Below, in pieces: positions 5,971 to 13,159 of a DNA stretch of 23,845 nt; position 1 is the stretch's first letter, and the number at the start of each line of letters is the position of its first letter. The notes under the pieces were generated by a model. The model saw only the letters and a program-made list of their open reading frames with translations, was not told where the DNA came from and did not search any database. The position numbers and the translations under genes were made by a program. Origin of the DNA: a virus; the IMG/VR virus record IMGVR_UViG_3300044733_002020, positions 1-23,845 of that record. One strand, written 5' to 3'.

Positions 5971-7905
5971 CTATGCAGAGATATCTACAAGTTCACAATT
6001 TCCGTCAGACGTACATGCAAGTGTGGCGTTTGTAGAAGTTCCATCTTCTGTTTCATAAAAAGATAAATCTTCCCAACGAATAGACTTTGGCATCTTAGAC
6101 AACAAGTCTTCGTATTCTTTTTTTGTTATTTCCTGATATGGTGCTTGCTTGTATGAATGATCAGAAGAAGGCAAGAATGAGATTCCAGAAACTTCATCAA
6201 AGTTTTTGTATACCCAGGCGCCAACTTCCATCCATTCGTCTTCTTTTACTGACACAGTAATTGAAGGCTTATGCTCACACCATGCTCTTTGATAAACAAG
6301 CCATGTGTTTAAATGATCTATAGCGGTTAAATCATTTCTAACAATTGCATCGTCTGGAGATTTTATTGGAAAAGAAAATACATATGTTTCTGTTGGTTTC
6401 ATGACATCATCTTCGACTGGTATGCCCACTTCTTTTAAGAAAACAGAGATTGGGTCTGTCTTTGATCCACGAACTGTTCTAATATAATATTTAGAGTGCC
6501 ACGGATGCATTCCAGAAGAAACTCCGACTAGCTGCGAGACTGTACCTGACGGCTTAACGCAAGTAATTGCTGCTGACTCTTGAATTCCAATTTTTTTAGC
6601 CTCTTCAGCATTTACCTTTCTTGCTGATTCACGAAGAGATACAAGAGTTTGCTCTAGTTTGTCTAAACCTTCTTGTCCAGAAAAGAATTTATGTCCAAAT
6701 TGTCCTGTTAAAGATACGCCAAGCAGTCTTTCTTCTTCTGTATTATCTTTCCAAATTTTACGCAAATATTTAAAGTCTGTTAATGTAGATTGCCACGTTC
6801 CTAAAATAGTGGCAAGTCTTACTTTATTCTTAACATCATCAACTGTATCCTTTTCACGTAATACGACTTCTGAAAGGTTACAAAACTGATAAGGACGCAA
6901 AATAATTTCTGAGCAAGGGTTTGTCCCATAGTGTATTTCAGGATCCCGCCTTCCATATCTAGCTGCCTGTGCTTGTGCAGCGGCAACATTATAAATTCCA
7001 CGTTCTCCAGATTTTGAGTCATAAAGATTTTTCCATTCTGCTATAAATTGTGCCATTTCTGGTTTTCTAGAATAAGCAACTGAGTTATTTGACAATGCTC
7101 TTTGTGGATTGTTCTCCCACCAATTACCTGACTTAGCTGCTGCCATTTCAATATCATTAATATTAGAAAGAGATATCATTGCAGATCTACGAACGCCACC
7201 AACTACAACAACTTCTCCAATTTTACACATAAGGTCGTGACATTCAATTGGCTTTAAATTTCTTCCAACTGCATTTTTAAATATTTTAATTGTAAAATCA
7301 AAAAGATTTACTAATGGTTGTGGTCCAGAAGATCTTCCGCCCATAGTTTTAAGTCTTGCGCCTGCGGGTCTAAGTTTAGTTACATCAACTGCTGGAATCT
7401 GTCCAGACCAAAGCAATGCTAATAGTTCACGATATGCTTTTGCCCAACCTTGTTTTGAATCTTCTACTGTAATTACTGTAGTTGATTTTTCTAAAGATTC
7501 TGGGACAGCAGGAAGTTTATTAATATACTTATACTCAACAGAAAACCCTACGCCAGTGCCACACATAAGGATATACATTGTTTCATCAAATGAACGTGGT
7601 GAATCAACTGGAACAAATGAACAATTGTATCCAGCAACATGATCTCTTTCTAATGCTGGGCCAGAAGTCATTACTGCTCTCATTGATGGCATAACGTTTC
7701 TGTCTAAAACTGCTTGTTTTAATTCTGATATTAATTTTGCTGAAGGTTCGTATGAGTATTCTTTAAATAAATGATCTAGCATAAAAGAAAAATATCTATC
7801 TACAGTTTCTTGCCAATTTTCTCTGCGGTTTTCTTCTGGAACCCACTTTGCATATCTAGATAATGCAATAAAATTTTCATATGGGTTTTCAATTGTAAAT
7901 GACAT
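5971..7905 (-). CDS. nrdJ: Adenosylcobalamin-dependent ribonucleotide reductase (class II), 644 aa
   Basis: Reduces ribonucleotides to deoxyribonucleotides for phage DNA synthesis, using a cobalamin-generated thiyl radical and so needing neither oxygen nor a metallocofactor subunit. The active-site NPCSEI is at 329-334: N329, C331 (expected thiyl cysteine) and E333. C342 lies 11 residues later, matching the spacing of the reducing cysteine in the monomeric Lactobacillus enzyme. YNCSF at 93-97 supplies the other reducing cysteine (C95), and the VGGVRRSAM motif is at 235-243. The C-terminal pair C631/C637 (CX5C) would relay electrons from a reductant. At 644 aa it is shorter than the ~740-aa Lactobacillus enzyme. 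No nrdB-like or nrdG-like partner is seen, which fits class II. AAAGG lies upstream of the ATG. Very likely correct; the class assignment comes from overall motif arrangement. Confidence 0.93.
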   Translation of the reverse strand: MSFTIENPYENFIALSRYAKWVPEENRRENWQETVDRYFSFMLDHLFKEYSYEPSAKLISELKQAVLDRNVMPSMRAVMTSGPALERDHVAGYNCSFVPVDSPRSFDETMYILMCGTGVGFSVEYKYINKLPAVPESLEKSTTVITVEDSKQGWAKAYRELLALLWSGQIPAVDVTKLRPAGARLKTMGGRSSGPQPLVNLFDFTIKIFKNAVGRNLKPIECHDLMCKIGEVVVVGGVRRSAMISLSNINDIEMAAAKSGNWWENNPQRALSNNSVAYSRKPEMAQFIAEWKNLYDSKSGERGIYNVAAAQAQAARYGRRDPEIHYGTNPCSEIILRPYQFCNLSEVVLREKDTVDDVKNKVRLATILGTWQSTLTDFKYLRKIWKDNTEEERLLGVSLTGQFGHKFFSGQEGLDKLEQTLVSLRESARKVNAEEAKKIGIQESAAITCVKPSGTVSQLVGVSSGMHPWHSKYYIRTVRGSKTDPISVFLKEVGIPVEDDVMKPTETYVFSFPIKSPDDAIVRNDLTAIDHLNTWLVYQRAWCEHKPSITVSVKEDEWMEVGAWVYKNFDEVSGISFLPSSDHSYKQAPYQEITKKEYEDLLSKMPKSIRWEDLSFYETEDGTSTNATLACTSDGNCELVDISA

Positions 7906-7991
7906 TTATATACGACCTTTTCTCCGCCAACGCAGTTTTAAAATTTGATTGAAGTCTAAGTGTACCAAACTTTATTTTATTGGTCTAGGTT

Positions 7992-9635: not shown

Positions 9636-9848
9636 TTGCGACAGATACAATATGTATCTCAATATATAGCTTTATCAGAAGATGGTCTTGTGCCTAGGCT
9701 TGAGTGCCCAATGGACCAAGGCCTTCTTCAATCTAATTTAGATTTGGAAGACAATATATACTTATATTGTTTATCATGCTCCTATAAAAAATTTATTGGA
9801 GAAAAATTGTATAGCGACATAAAAGAAAGAGTTGATAAAAATGTCTGA
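9636..9848 (+). CDS. Small cysteine-containing protein (70 aa), TTG start
   Basis: Function not recognised. The TTG start is supported by AAGGAG 5 nt upstream, directly after the lysozyme stop. C24 (CPMDQG) and the pair C45/C48 (YCLSCSYKK) look like a small zinc ribbon, though a fourth ligand is not obvious. The 3' end overlaps the next gene's ATG by 8 nt, so the four-gene run 9066-10249 is probably one operon. Confidence 0.65.
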   Translation: MRQIQYVSQYIALSEDGLVPRLECPMDQGLLQSNLDLEDNIYLYCLSCSYKKFIGEKLYSDIKERVDKNV

Positions 9849-10250: not shown

Positions 10251-10793
10251 TTAATTTAAGTCTGGGTACAAAGATTTATTGGCACGATCTTTTCTACTTG
10301 AATGCCACATTGCAATTGTATACCTAATTCCATTTTTAACTTCATTTACTTTATGTAAATATTCAGTACCTGCGCTTGGAAATATAACGGCAGATCCAGA
10401 TTTTGCTTTATATTTAAATTTTTGATTTGGAAATTCAATTTCTCCACCTTCAAAATTTTCATTTAAATAAATAATGCTACTAAATTGAATAAATCCTTCT
10501 CCATGTCTAGGATTATCAATGTGCGGCCCAGCGTACCCTCCTTGAACCCATGCAGTTAAATATGCTTGAGTTGTGTAAAGCTCTGGATAAAAGCCGTATT
10601 CGTCTTTATGCAGTTTTGTTAAAATATCAGAATATTTTTTTAATATTAAATTCACCTCTTCTGACTCTTCTAAAATTCTTGCGCTTTTGCTATCTTTAAA
10701 AACAGATACTTTTCCATTATTAATTAAATTAATAATATCGCTACATTCTTTTTCGGTTAATAAATTTTCTATAACTTTTATTCTATGACCCAT
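10251..10793 (-). CDS. 2-oxoglutarate/Fe(II)-dependent oxygenase, prolyl-4-hydroxylase-like (180 aa)
   Basis: Double-stranded beta-helix dioxygenase of the P4H-like group, which hydroxylates a substrate while decarboxylating 2-oxoglutarate. The iron triad is visible: H91-x-D93 (in AGPHIDNPRHG) and H147 (EYLHKVNEV). R157 (GIRYTIAMW) would bind the 2-oxoglutarate carboxylate. The core has the usual SSIIYLNENFEGGEIEFP strand pair (105-122). Length is normal for phage members. AAGGA is 7 nt before the ATG, and the start overlaps the upstream cysteine-cluster gene by 11 nt, so the two are co-translated. Substrate is unknown; candidates are proteins (including collagen-like tail segments), glycans or nucleic acid. 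Confidence 0.87.
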   Translation of the reverse strand: MGHRIKVIENLLTEKECSDIINLINNGKVSVFKDSKSARILEESEEVNLILKKYSDILTKLHKDEYGFYPELYTTQAYLTAWVQGGYAGPHIDNPRHGEGFIQFSSIIYLNENFEGGEIEFPNQKFKYKAKSGSAVIFPSAGTEYLHKVNEVKNGIRYTIAMWHSSRKDRANKSLYPDLN

Positions 10794-11226
10794 GTTTTTT
10801 CCTTTGCATGAATTTTATTACATTTTCACAAAAAATATTATCTCCTAGATGATGAAAATTTCCTGAGCTATCATTCCAAATTAATGGTAGTTTATTAAAT
10901 CTAGCATATTCTATAGCATAAGTTAAAATATCGGGGCTATAACTTTCATATGATTTAACTAATCTTAAATATTTTTTATTTTGAAATATTGCAATATCTA
11001 TTATTGCATTTGCATTTTCTGGCTTAATAAAATCTGGAACATCCTCTTGTTGCAACCAAAGACATTTATATTGTTTACATGGATCATCTGGTCTATTTTC
11101 ATAATCCTTACAAACTCCTCCTATTTCTAAAAAGAAACAAGATTGACCTGGAAACATTTCATGACCTCTTACTGTGTTGGCCAGGGTGCCGTCACAGCAT
11201 TTCGTACAAGATCCACAAGTTTTTAT
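10783..11226 (-). CDS. YkgJ-like cysteine-cluster protein (about 147 aa), apparent ATA start
   Basis: Reading upstream of the first ATG (11157) in frame gives KTCGSCTKCCDGTL, a CxxCxxCC cluster typical of YkgJ/UPF0153-type metal-binding proteins. Further cysteines follow at about residues 30, 39, 50 and 55, making eight in the first 55. The family N-terminus normally begins just before this cluster. Here the codon at that place (11224-11226) is ATA, with AAGGA 6 nt upstream, and an in-frame stop lies at 11239-11241. Either a rare ATA (or ATT at 11227-11229) start is used, or the start codon is mutated and only a truncated protein from 11157 (AGAGGT nearby) is made. Fe-S or zinc binding is inferred from the family; the partner is probably the adjoining oxygenase. 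Confidence 0.68.
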   Translation of the reverse strand: MKTCGSCTKCCDGTLANTVRGHEMFPGQSCFFLEIGGVCKDYENRPDDPCKQYKCLWLQQEDVPDFIKPENANAIIDIAIFQNKKYLRLVKSYESYSPDILTYAIEYARFNKLPLIWNDSSGNFHHLGDNIFCENVIKFMQRKKHGS

Positions 11227-11239
11227 AATATATCCTTTT

Positions 11240-11257
11240 TATATAGTATACTATATA
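11240..11257. promoter_or_regulatory. Palindromic bidirectional promoter core
   Basis: An 18-bp perfect palindrome (TATATAGTATACTATATA) lies between divergent genes and contains TATACT on both strands. On the plus strand TATACT (11247-11252) is exactly 12 nt before the ATG at 11259, which predicts a leaderless mRNA. On the minus strand it would start RNA just ahead of the AAGGA of the cysteine-cluster gene. Confidence 0.5.
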
Positions 11258-11258
11258 A

Positions 11259-11906
11259 ATGGAAAATAATATAGAAATTTTAGAAAATTTTTTATCTGAG
11301 GATTCTTGTAATTTTATAATAAATTCATTTAATGACTCTTTTTCAGAAACAGAAAATTTGGGTATTTATGGTGGTCCAAGTCATGGAATAGAGTCTGCTT
11401 GGCAAATAGGTAGTAATAAGAAATTTTCCGAATATTCTGAAAATATTAATAAAAATATATCTATAGATTTGTTAACAAGTTCTATTATTTCTATAAAACA
11501 AATTTTATCAAAAAAATATAATGTAGAAATAGATTTAAGAACAATTTTTTATAGTAAAATGACTTCTGGGTCTGAGATTAAAGAGCACTACGATAATTAC
11601 GAGCCCGACGGATCATTTTATTTGCCATATGGAACAGATCCATTTGCTGCAAATGAACTAGGATTAGAGCCAGACTATTCTGCAATACTATATTTAAATA
11701 ATAATTACATGGGTGGGGAAATTGAATTTCCATTACAAAAATTAAAATTAAAACCAAATCCTGGAACGCTTATATTTTTTCGTGGAGATATGAATTTTCC
11801 ACATTTAGTAAATAAAGTAGAGTCTGGTGAGCGAATTAATTTAATTATGTTTTTATGGAAATCAGATTATAGAAAAAAATATTTTAAAAAAATTAATAAT
11901 AGTTGA
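11259..11906 (+). CDS. 2-oxoglutarate/Fe(II)-dependent oxygenase, P4H-like (215 aa), probably leaderless
   Basis: Same fold as the 180-aa oxygenase across the divergent promoter but quite different in sequence. The iron triad is H110-x-D112 (EHYDNYEP) and H182 (NFPHLVNKV); R192 (GERINLIMF) is the probable 2-oxoglutarate anchor. The core AILYLNNNYMGGEIEFPLQ (142-160) mirrors the neighbour's motif. An insertion at about 115-139 follows the HxD. No ribosome-binding site precedes the ATG, while TATACT begins exactly 12 nt upstream, so translation probably starts at the mRNA 5' end. Coding AT content is very high. A hydroxylase for protein or small-molecule substrate is inferred; substrate unknown. 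Confidence 0.85.
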   Translation: MENNIEILENFLSEDSCNFIINSFNDSFSETENLGIYGGPSHGIESAWQIGSNKKFSEYSENINKNISIDLLTSSIISIKQILSKKYNVEIDLRTIFYSKMTSGSEIKEHYDNYEPDGSFYLPYGTDPFAANELGLEPDYSAILYLNNNYMGGEIEFPLQKLKLKPNPGTLIFFRGDMNFPHLVNKVESGERINLIMFLWKSDYRKKYFKKINNS

Positions 11907-11931
11907 CTTTAAAAAATATTAATTATACAAT
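11903..11931 (+). promoter_or_regulatory. Sigma70-like promoter for candidate small RNA
   Basis: TTGACT (11903-11908), a 17-bp spacer and TACAAT (11926-11931). The predicted start is near 11938, just ahead of a GC-richer structured stretch without an ORF. The -35 overlaps the stop of the preceding oxygenase gene. Confidence 0.55.
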
Positions 11932-11937
11932 TATTTT

Positions 11938-12013
11938 GTAGGTCGAGCTTAGGCTCCTTACGTAGCTACAATAAGTAGCAAAACCCAATCGGATCCGCCT
12001 CTGGTTGGGTTTT
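11938..12013 (+). ncRNA. Candidate ~76-nt small RNA with three hairpins
   Basis: This stretch has its own promoter, no ribosome-binding site or ORF, and is richer in GC than its surroundings. It contains three consecutive perfect stems. GAGC-TTAG-GCTC is at 11945-11956. GCTAC-AATAA-GTAGC is at 11965-11979. A terminator-like AAAACCCAA / TTGGGTTTT stem is at 11980-12013, whose 3' arm ends in TTTT. The architecture (promoter, two small hairpins, Rho-independent terminator) is that of an autonomous bacterial sRNA. I do not recognise a known family. Alternatively it could be a terminator plus attenuator for the oxygenase transcript. Confidence 0.5.
11980..12013 (+). terminator. Intrinsic terminator (AAAACCCAA/TTGGGTTTT)
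   Basis: A perfect 9-bp stem with a 16-nt loop that can form extra CC/GG pairs, with its 3' arm ending in a T-run. It ends transcription from the candidate sRNA promoter and probably from the oxygenase gene. Confidence 0.7.
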
Positions 12014-12027
12014 ATACTATATTGCTG

Positions 12028-12039
12028 TATAATTATACT
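12028..12039 (+). promoter_or_regulatory. -10 box giving a leaderless start
   Basis: TATAAT (12028-12033) starts exactly 12 nt before the ATG at 12040, so the predicted +1 is the A of the ATG. No Shine-Dalgarno sequence lies in between. Confidence 0.5.
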
Positions 12040-12204
12040 ATGACTCCAAGAAGATATTTTTCTGATCAAATGTTTAATCCGTATTTTCAATCAGAACATT
12101 ATAAAAATGAAAGTCCTGAAATAAAAATGCAAAATAAAATTGAAAATTTTTTTAAAAAAGTATTTAAACCTAGAAAGTATAAAAATGACACTAAAACCAA
12201 TTAA
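12040..12204 (+). CDS. Small basic protein (54 aa), probably leaderless
   Basis: Function not recognised. The protein starts MTPRRYFSDQMF and ends with a lysine-rich helix (KIENFFKKVFKPRKYKND). It is supported mainly by the -10 box 12 nt upstream of its ATG and by a 20-nt overlap with the oxygenase gene that follows, so it may act as a leader peptide coupling translation of that gene. It could instead be untranslated leader. Confidence 0.45.
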   Translation: MTPRRYFSDQMFNPYFQSEHYKNESPEIKMQNKIENFFKKVFKPRKYKNDTKTN

Positions 12205-13159
12205 TTTAGGAAATGGAATTTTATTATTTAAAAATGTATTAAAGGACCCATCTGCCACTTATGAATTTATAAAAAATTCTAAAAATAGCAATGATCCTTA
12301 TTTTGGTAAAGAGGTATGGCGTGATTGGCACCCCTGGGGTAATTATGCAAAAGCCTATCCAATGGATGACCGTTCTTATTTAAGCAATAATAGTCAAGGA
12401 GCTGAGCTTCAGAAAGAATGCCTAGATATATTTTTTGAAATTTTAAAAATTTATAAAAATGATTTTTATGATTTAGAATATTTTGAAAAAAATAATATAC
12501 CTAAAAGTATACCTACATCTTTAAAAGATTTAGATGAAGATGTCTCTCCTCATAGAGTTATGATGGCTGATTTTGTAATTTTTGAAACTAATAAAAATGC
12601 CTCTGCAGGTTGGCAGATGGATATTCATCAAGATGTTATAAAAGGAATAGCAACAGATCAAAATCATTCATTTAATTTTAACATCTATGTAAATGATGAT
12701 TATGAGGGTGGAGATATAATATTTTTTGATCATGAAAATATAGAAAAAGCACCATATGTAGACTCGGTATCTGGAGAAACTGGAGAGGCCTGGTTAATAG
12801 AAAATTATTTTGAGTATAAAATGCAGGCAGGGGATGGATTAATATTTCCAGTAGATATTTATCATGGAGTTAAAAAATTAAAAGGTGAAAACTCTAAATA
12901 TTATATAAGACAATTTTTATCATATGTGGATGGACAAGTAAAAATGAATAAGCTTGAAGAATACAACTCTTTAAAAAATCCAGAAAAAAGTTTTGATGAA
13001 TATTTAAATGAATATACTGAAAATGTAAAAAATAATAGAGTAACGCCAGAAATATTTAATTCATTAGATTCTATTGCAATAGATAGAGCTAGTGACCCAT
13101 ATAAAAGAATTACTCCTTGTGTTATTAAGAATAATAAAGATATATCGTCTTTAATGTAA
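12185..13159 (+). CDS. 2-oxoglutarate/Fe(II)-dependent oxygenase (324 aa)
   Basis: Third oxygenase of the cluster and the largest. The iron triad is H148-x-D150 (MDIHQDVI) and H227 (DIYHGVKKL); R242 (YYIRQFL) would hold 2-oxoglutarate. The beta-helix core includes FNFNIYVNDDYEGGDIIFF (163-181), the same EGGxIxF pattern as in the two smaller genes. Residues about 43-60 (VWRDWHPWGNYAKAYPM) and the C-terminal ~75 residues are extra. The start at 12185 is chosen because it gives MTLKPINLGNGILLF, the natural domain start, with AGAAAG upstream; the longer reading from 12140 would need TTG inside the preceding gene. Substrate unknown. Confidence 0.82.
   Translation: MTLKPINLGNGILLFKNVLKDPSATYEFIKNSKNSNDPYFGKEVWRDWHPWGNYAKAYPMDDRSYLSNNSQGAELQKECLDIFFEILKIYKNDFYDLEYFEKNNIPKSIPTSLKDLDEDVSPHRVMMADFVIFETNKNASAGWQMDIHQDVIKGIATDQNHSFNFNIYVNDDYEGGDIIFFDHENIEKAPYVDSVSGETGEAWLIENYFEYKMQAGDGLIFPVDIYHGVKKLKGENSKYYIRQFLSYVDGQVKMNKLEEYNSLKNPEKSFDEYLNEYTENVKNNRVTPEIFNSLDSIAIDRASDPYKRITPCVIKNNKDISSLM

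Follow-up and report, generated by a model that had tools for sequence, protein, structure and literature searches.

The small RNA locus and its promoter

The DNA analysed here, referred to as the window, is a 23,845-nt stretch of viral sequence (IMG/VR record IMGVR_UViG_3300044733_002020, positions 1 to 23,845). Its plus strand carries genes for a lysozyme-like protein (SLT_3, PF18896; 9060-9626) and a small cysteine-containing protein (9636-9848), and its minus strand carries nrdJ, which encodes a B12-dependent (class II) ribonucleotide reductase (5971-7905; phrog_367, E 1e-186; PF02867). A small RNA element of 76 nt lies further along the plus strand at 11938-12013 and matches the covariance model of its family, described below, with 58.6 bits. 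Three 2OG-Fe(II) oxygenase genes (10251-13159) come either after the conserved lysozyme operon and before the RNA, or shortly behind the RNA. Because the RNA sits about 1.3 kb after the lysozyme gene start in most relatives, this oxygenase block looks like inserted cargo.

The RNA is predicted to form three plus-strand hairpins. SL1 (11938-11961) has an outer stem (GUAGG/CUUAC), a 2-nt bulge (UC), an inner stem (GAGC/GCUC) and a UUAG loop; SL2 (11965-11979) is a GCUAC-AAUAA-GUAGC hairpin; and SL3 (11980-12013), which is supported by both folding and covariation, is an intrinsic terminator hairpin whose apical loop, UCCGCC (11994-11999), we propose as a pairing seed. The minimum free energy of 11938-12013 is -34.3 kcal/mol, compared with -17.05 ± 2.83 kcal/mol for shuffled sequences (z = -6.1), and 1 of 200 shuffles equalled this stability. 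The element has a GC content of 47%, and the surrounding DNA is about 25% GC. These values bear out a first-pass annotation, which had placed a terminated, hairpin-containing RNA of about 76 nt in a GC-rich island of AT-rich DNA. That annotation had also described two perfect small hairpins. Both are present, but SL1 is longer than its perfect inner hairpin because the outer stem and the bulge belong to it. The proposed terminator ending in TTTT exists and is conserved in relatives, but its U-tract is short (TTTT, then ATAC), and a generic terminator scan did not list SL3 for that reason. Likewise, the element was said to contain no ORF; there is none of at least 50 aa on the plus strand inside 11938-12013, and the next plus-strand ORF begins downstream, but an antisense ORF of 55 aa (11923-12090, minus strand) overlaps the element. 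Mimicry of the 16S rRNA 3' end by GGAUCCGCCUC, acting as an anti-Shine-Dalgarno sequence, was dropped as a candidate function because most of the CCUC is within a stem.

The region after the RNA (12006-12204, plus strand) contains a small ORF (MTPRRYFSDQ...) with a promoter, TTGGGT-17-TATAAT, that overlaps the RNA terminator. This promoter would make transcription begin on or beside the ATG, which suggests that the ORF is translated from a leaderless mRNA. Similar GGTGTATAAT..ATG layouts occur 3' of the RNA in many relatives.

The RNA's own sigma-70-type promoter (11903-11931, plus strand) consists of TTGACT (11903-11908) and TACAAT (11926-11931) separated by 17 nt, just as the first-pass annotation had read it. 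From this spacing, the predicted RNA start is about 7 nt past the -10 box, at the first base of SL1. The promoter score alone does not beat chance, with 29 promoter sites found in the window compared with 39.9 expected in shuffles; what sets this promoter apart is its conservation in relatives. The spacer between a TTGAC-type -35 box and a [TG]A[TC]A[AC]T-type -10 box is exactly 17 nt in all 198 scored family members, in a scan that allowed spacers of 16 to 18 and favoured 17 in ties. A promoter of this type is absent from six of the 204 members, all of one subgroup. A subgroup with the RNA but without a sigma-70 -35/-10 pair (L046, L049, L061, L095 and L113) carries ATAAAGGAAATAAAAATAAAATTA upstream, which may represent another promoter type.

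Distribution, covariation and genomic setting of the RNA family

An 18-base pattern from the window element matched nine viral contigs, which are near-identical over the block that starts with the -35 box and ends with the terminator, and differ in their flanks. Patterns for the terminator loop and for SL1 each matched at least 120 viral contigs, with about half of the SL1 matches overlapping terminator-loop matches. Pattern searches and searches with a covariance model built from 35 members gave, among the matches listed, a family of 204 members in viral contigs, of which 113 are distinct. According to the model, there is one sense-strand copy per locus, the exception being a terminator-only partial duplicate in L060, and one RNA copy per contig in contigs of up to 115 kb. 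Opposite-strand model matches were rejected as echoes of the terminator palindrome. The partial duplicate (L060:1368-1453, minus strand, equivalent to L413:4428-4513) is a lone second SL3 terminator with the loop UCCGCC, placed directly after the stop codon of a protein gene; it may be a mobile terminator or else a 3'-UTR form of the seed.

Searches for the RNA outside these contigs were negative. The exact patterns had no match in 84,980 bacterial and archaeal genomes, and therefore no prophage or host copy was found. BLAST comparison of the window copy and a typical member with cultured phages and plasmids gave chance matches only, and a window protein used as bait for relatives retrieved near-identical contigs only. 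A Rfam search with the window copy yielded nothing at the gathering score (best a chance match of 13.9 bits, E 0.5, cut-off 48.8), tRNAs were the sole families reported when the window and 15 member loci were searched against Rfam 15, and a relaxed search of 11 loci found nothing at the element. The first-pass statement that the RNA resembles no Rfam-type family thus agrees with this Infernal-type check. Taking these searches with the alignments described next, it is near certain that the window element is a copy of a previously undescribed RNA family.

We aligned 100 members to the covariance model; a first MAFFT alignment had misplaced SL2 and parts of SL1, and all pair counts come from the re-alignment. 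Paired cells amounted to 95.4%, compared with 83.3 ± 0.4% in shuffles. Both sides changed in 19 of the 28 base pairs, and there were 321 double-change cells, compared with 81.6 ± 13 in shuffles and 27-49 when the partners were slid. RNAalifold recovered largely the same three helices from this alignment, and all three hairpins covary strongly. Of the 113 distinct members, 112 have the SL3 loop UCCGCC; L211, with UCAUCC, has the sole altered loop. SL1 has the loop AUCCCAC in the largest clade, UUAG in the clade of the window and others elsewhere, and its bulge (GGUN) is conserved. The sequence of SL2 varies freely, with mostly tetraloops outside the window copy, and the hairpin is missing from one member (L343).

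The first members had come from sequence-pattern searches, which could make the loop conservation an artefact, and we therefore used an independent sample, in which the neighbouring small cysteine-containing protein gene served as bait for 79 newly fetched loci. The RNA was present in 74, and the contigs of the other five end 0.4 to 2.6 kb past the bait gene, which is the span where the RNA sits in their relatives. All 44 distinct copies in this sample have the loop UCCGCC, including those of L397 and L400, whose stem is almost wholly changed. Covariation was strong again (142 double changes compared with 43.8 ± 5.1). Compensatory changes in relatives, which the first-pass annotation had named as a check on its proposal, are therefore numerous in both samples. 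They bear directly on whether the locus is a chance promoter beside a transcription terminator, with no functional RNA. Such a terminator does occur alone after a protein gene, in L060, but the compensatory changes in three hairpins already refute this reading unless the alignment is wrong; moreover, the promoter spacing is fixed and the RNA is found in every bait locus whose contig does not end early. We give chance a negligible probability and regard the existence of the RNA family as virtually assured.

The genomic setting is fixed on one side of the RNA. Among the 113 distinct elements, the lysozyme-like gene is a same-strand upstream neighbour in 108, the small cysteine-containing protein gene in 105, and a glycosyltransferase gene lies upstream in 89, with nrdJ beyond. 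The feature 3' of the RNA is a plus-strand ORF in 66 elements, a minus-strand ORF in 24 and a minus-strand tRNA in 14. An association with tRNA arrays was considered and rejected, as no more than 14 of 113 elements are within 150 nt of a tRNA. In the window, the order of promoter, structured RNA, terminator and then an ORF 26 nt on would suit a leader, attenuator or riboswitch acting in cis on the downstream gene, as would the same-strand ORFs that come next in the majority of elements. However, the class of downstream gene is not conserved and includes the antisense ORFs and tRNAs, the next gene of the window has its own promoter-like site, and every member has a near-perfect terminator stem, with no conserved antiterminator seen. 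Control in cis is thus highly improbable. With a fixed upstream side and a downstream feature that varies in kind and strand, the RNA is therefore better viewed as trans-acting than as the leader of the next gene, and we consider action in trans very probable. The element also has features of the trans-acting sRNA class, namely its own promoter and terminator, the lack of an ORF on its strand, and a structure conserved in relatives.

Several features point to the phages that carry this RNA. WhiB, which has been used as an actinophage marker (PMC6802176), is encoded by 12 of 14 long contigs and matched solely Corynebacterium among 14 control genomes. The window NrdJ is about 65% identical to proteins of Streptomyces phages (Stanwilliamsviridae), and the divergent glycosyltransferase-nrdJ / endolysin layout is common to the Streptomyces phages of that family. 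By these protein and gene-order comparisons, the carriers are probably Stanwilliamsviridae-like actinophages. From the sample numbers, they may be of freshwater origin.

Candidate pairing sites in the nrdJ and whiB-operon leaders

The complement of the SL3 loop, GGCGGA, lies in the nrdJ leader of the window (7923-7928, minus strand), a short distance 5' of the ribosome-binding site and start codon, and we propose it as a target site. The motif is present in 107 of 112 distinct nrdJ leaders and in 42 of 46 distinct leaders of the bait sample, where it is kept even by phages with the most diverged RNA. In most leaders, a distance of about 18 to 27 nt separates it from the start codon, and it forms part of a small hairpin (CCGC..GCGG). 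No other 6-mer with at least five G/C is conserved in two or more of the 87 sets of orthologous leaders. In the leaders of seven long RNA-carrying contigs, AGGCGG was seen 25 times compared with 5.5 expected, and GGCGGA 24 times compared with 8.6. The corresponding values in the leaders of three Streptomyces Stanwilliamsviridae, in which the covariance model does not find the RNA, were 7 compared with 3.8 and 1 compared with 3.3. The P values of these enrichments are too small and indicative only, because orthologous leaders are non-independent and were counted several times. Six base pairs make a short seed, and AGGCGG is partly Shine-Dalgarno-like. GGCGGA has been lost from the nrdJ leader in one clade (L047, L054, L196 and L209) and in L036, all with an unchanged SL3 loop, and L211, with its UCAUCC loop, retains GGCGGA. 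Co-variation between RNA and target, which would be the decisive sequence evidence, is therefore lacking.

The hairpin immediately 5' of the nrdJ ribosome-binding site (window 7919-7937, minus strand) shows compensatory changes among the 112 distinct relatives and persists even without GGCGGA, for example as ACGACTACGTCGT in L047. Since the hairpin is kept where the motif is lost, GGCGGA may serve the hairpin, and the nrdJ leader may have a function that does not involve the sRNA.

These counts also allow for a trans-acting sRNA whose invariant loop is mainly directed at host RNA, either mRNA or ribosomal or other stable RNA, with GGCGGA in phage leaders being incidental. The loop (44/44) is stricter than any single phage target (42/46 for nrdJ leaders), which would therefore fit a slowly evolving host partner, and the promoter of the RNA is of host type. 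Against a host target, the complement is enriched in phage leaders and not in relatives without the RNA, and GGCGGA is near-fixed in nrdJ leaders even alongside the most diverged RNA. We judge this alternative to be unlikely.

A second proposed target for the phage-directed sRNA is gene X, which encodes a 75-77 aa protein and lies directly upstream of whiB. Its leader contains TGGGATGC, just past the promoter, in all seven contigs whose RNA has the CAUCCCA SL1 loop, and it contains GGCGGA in all six contigs with another SL1 loop and a script-located sRNA. Neither motif is found in the gene X leader of G046, which has the RNA, or of G009, which has the SL1 type of the window. When matches to the phage's own RNA are ranked by rarity in G001 and G006, the gene X leader and a leader/start region with GAGGCGGAT take the top two places. 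A blind scan for sequences complementary to the SL1 loop picked up mainly the opposite strand of the RNA itself. The agreement between RNA loop and gene X leader runs along clade lines and could stem from one or two events. The SL1-complementary stretch also overlaps an inverted repeat at the gene X promoter. This repeat, GCCGCAGCA ... TGCTGCGG (L250-L329, near position 1501; for example L263, L264 and L322), spans the -10 box, with one arm in the -35/-10 spacer and the other after the start, and shows compensatory differences. It resembles an operator for a repressor or a hairpin that overlaps the promoter.

The motifs in these leaders also bear on a role that needs no pairing, in which a host or phage protein binds the UCCGCC hairpin and the RNA acts as a decoy or scaffold. 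Three rigid hairpins, an invariant loop, a conserved GGUN bulge in SL1 and a tolerant SL2 are typical of protein-binding RNAs, but such a role does not predict complementary motifs in leaders, and we view it as rather improbable.

We slightly favour a stand-alone regulatory RNA of about 76 nt that pairs with the phage nrdJ and whiB-operon leaders, and we see an even chance that such pairing is its main job. Transcription of the RNA would start at a sigma-70 promoter of host type and stop at the RNA's own terminator; genomes of a large actinophage lineage carry a single copy each, at a constant position. Its exposed C-rich terminator loop, UCCGCC, would base-pair in trans with phage mRNA leaders, and in the largest clade the SL1 loop AUCCCAC would also pair with leaders. 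nrdJ would be the first target, bound at the GGCGGA immediately 5' of its ribosome-binding site, and the unit of two genes that ends with whiB would be a further one. Pairing would probably block 30S binding and thereby limit how much of these presumably early products is made. More tentatively, and with some doubt, the RNA may control a lineage-wide regulon that uses no known chaperone, with the invariant terminator-loop seed co-regulating ribonucleotide reductase and the whiB operon and an exchangeable SL1 seed having changed with its target leader. The first-pass suggestion of a phage regulatory sRNA acting on host or phage mRNA is consistent with these leads (nrdJ and the gene X-whiB operon), which point to phage mRNAs more than to host ones.

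Relation to known small RNAs

The actinobacterial 6C/B11 RNA comes closest as a working model. As outlined in PMC10470900, which cites Mai et al. 2019 (Nucleic Acids Res 47:4292), its C-rich hairpin loops pair with G-rich mRNA leaders with no known RNA chaperone, and this analogy offers a lead for how the present RNA may work. Both are small RNAs with exposed C-rich loops, and the complements conserved in the nrdJ and gene X leaders may be comparable pairing sites. 6C has two hairpins with runs of C in both loops, whereas the present RNA has UCCGCC in SL3 and, in SL1, UUAG in the window and variable sequences elsewhere; unlike 6C, it is found in phages only and carries its invariant loop on the terminator hairpin itself. 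The Rfam searches gave no 6C covariance-model match at the window or member loci. Judged by model match and loop sequence, the present RNA is not a 6C member.

Phage-encoded sRNAs are known from lambda (PreS) and VP882 (VpdS), both Hfq-dependent, single-phage cases (PMC12197685). They regulate mRNAs during infection, as is proposed for the present RNA. PreS and VpdS belong to single enterobacterial or vibrio phages, whereas the RNA described here forms a compact three-hairpin family that spans a large lineage of actinophages and for which phage targets are proposed.

In Streptomyces Stanwilliamsviridae, the glycosyltransferase/endolysin intergenic region (L214:7741-7850, minus strand, and L346, L347, L348 and L349) contains an unannotated promoter, about 60 nt and a terminator. 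The apical loop of this terminator complements an upstream segment (for example, GGTGCGAC with GTCGCACC and GGTGCCAC with GTGGCACC), with compensatory changes among the five phages, and the locus is likely to encode a separate pseudoknotted small RNA that, to our knowledge, is unnamed. Like the present RNA, it is a short promoter-hairpin-terminator unit near the glycosyltransferase/nrdJ block; unlike it, the unit lies between divergent genes and its terminator loop is complementary to an upstream segment. A weak model match in a Streptomyces phage (17.7 bits) was rejected as a homolog, having a different architecture and no significance over whole genomes.

The sRNA mechanisms of the actinobacterial host group are poorly known, and mycobacteria have no identified Hfq or ProQ chaperone (PMC10470900). 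The RNA gene appears to be present throughout a large actinophage lineage and was missed by Rfam. It would provide a concrete, testable case of a phage that controls its own nucleotide supply and a WhiB regulator through RNA pairing.
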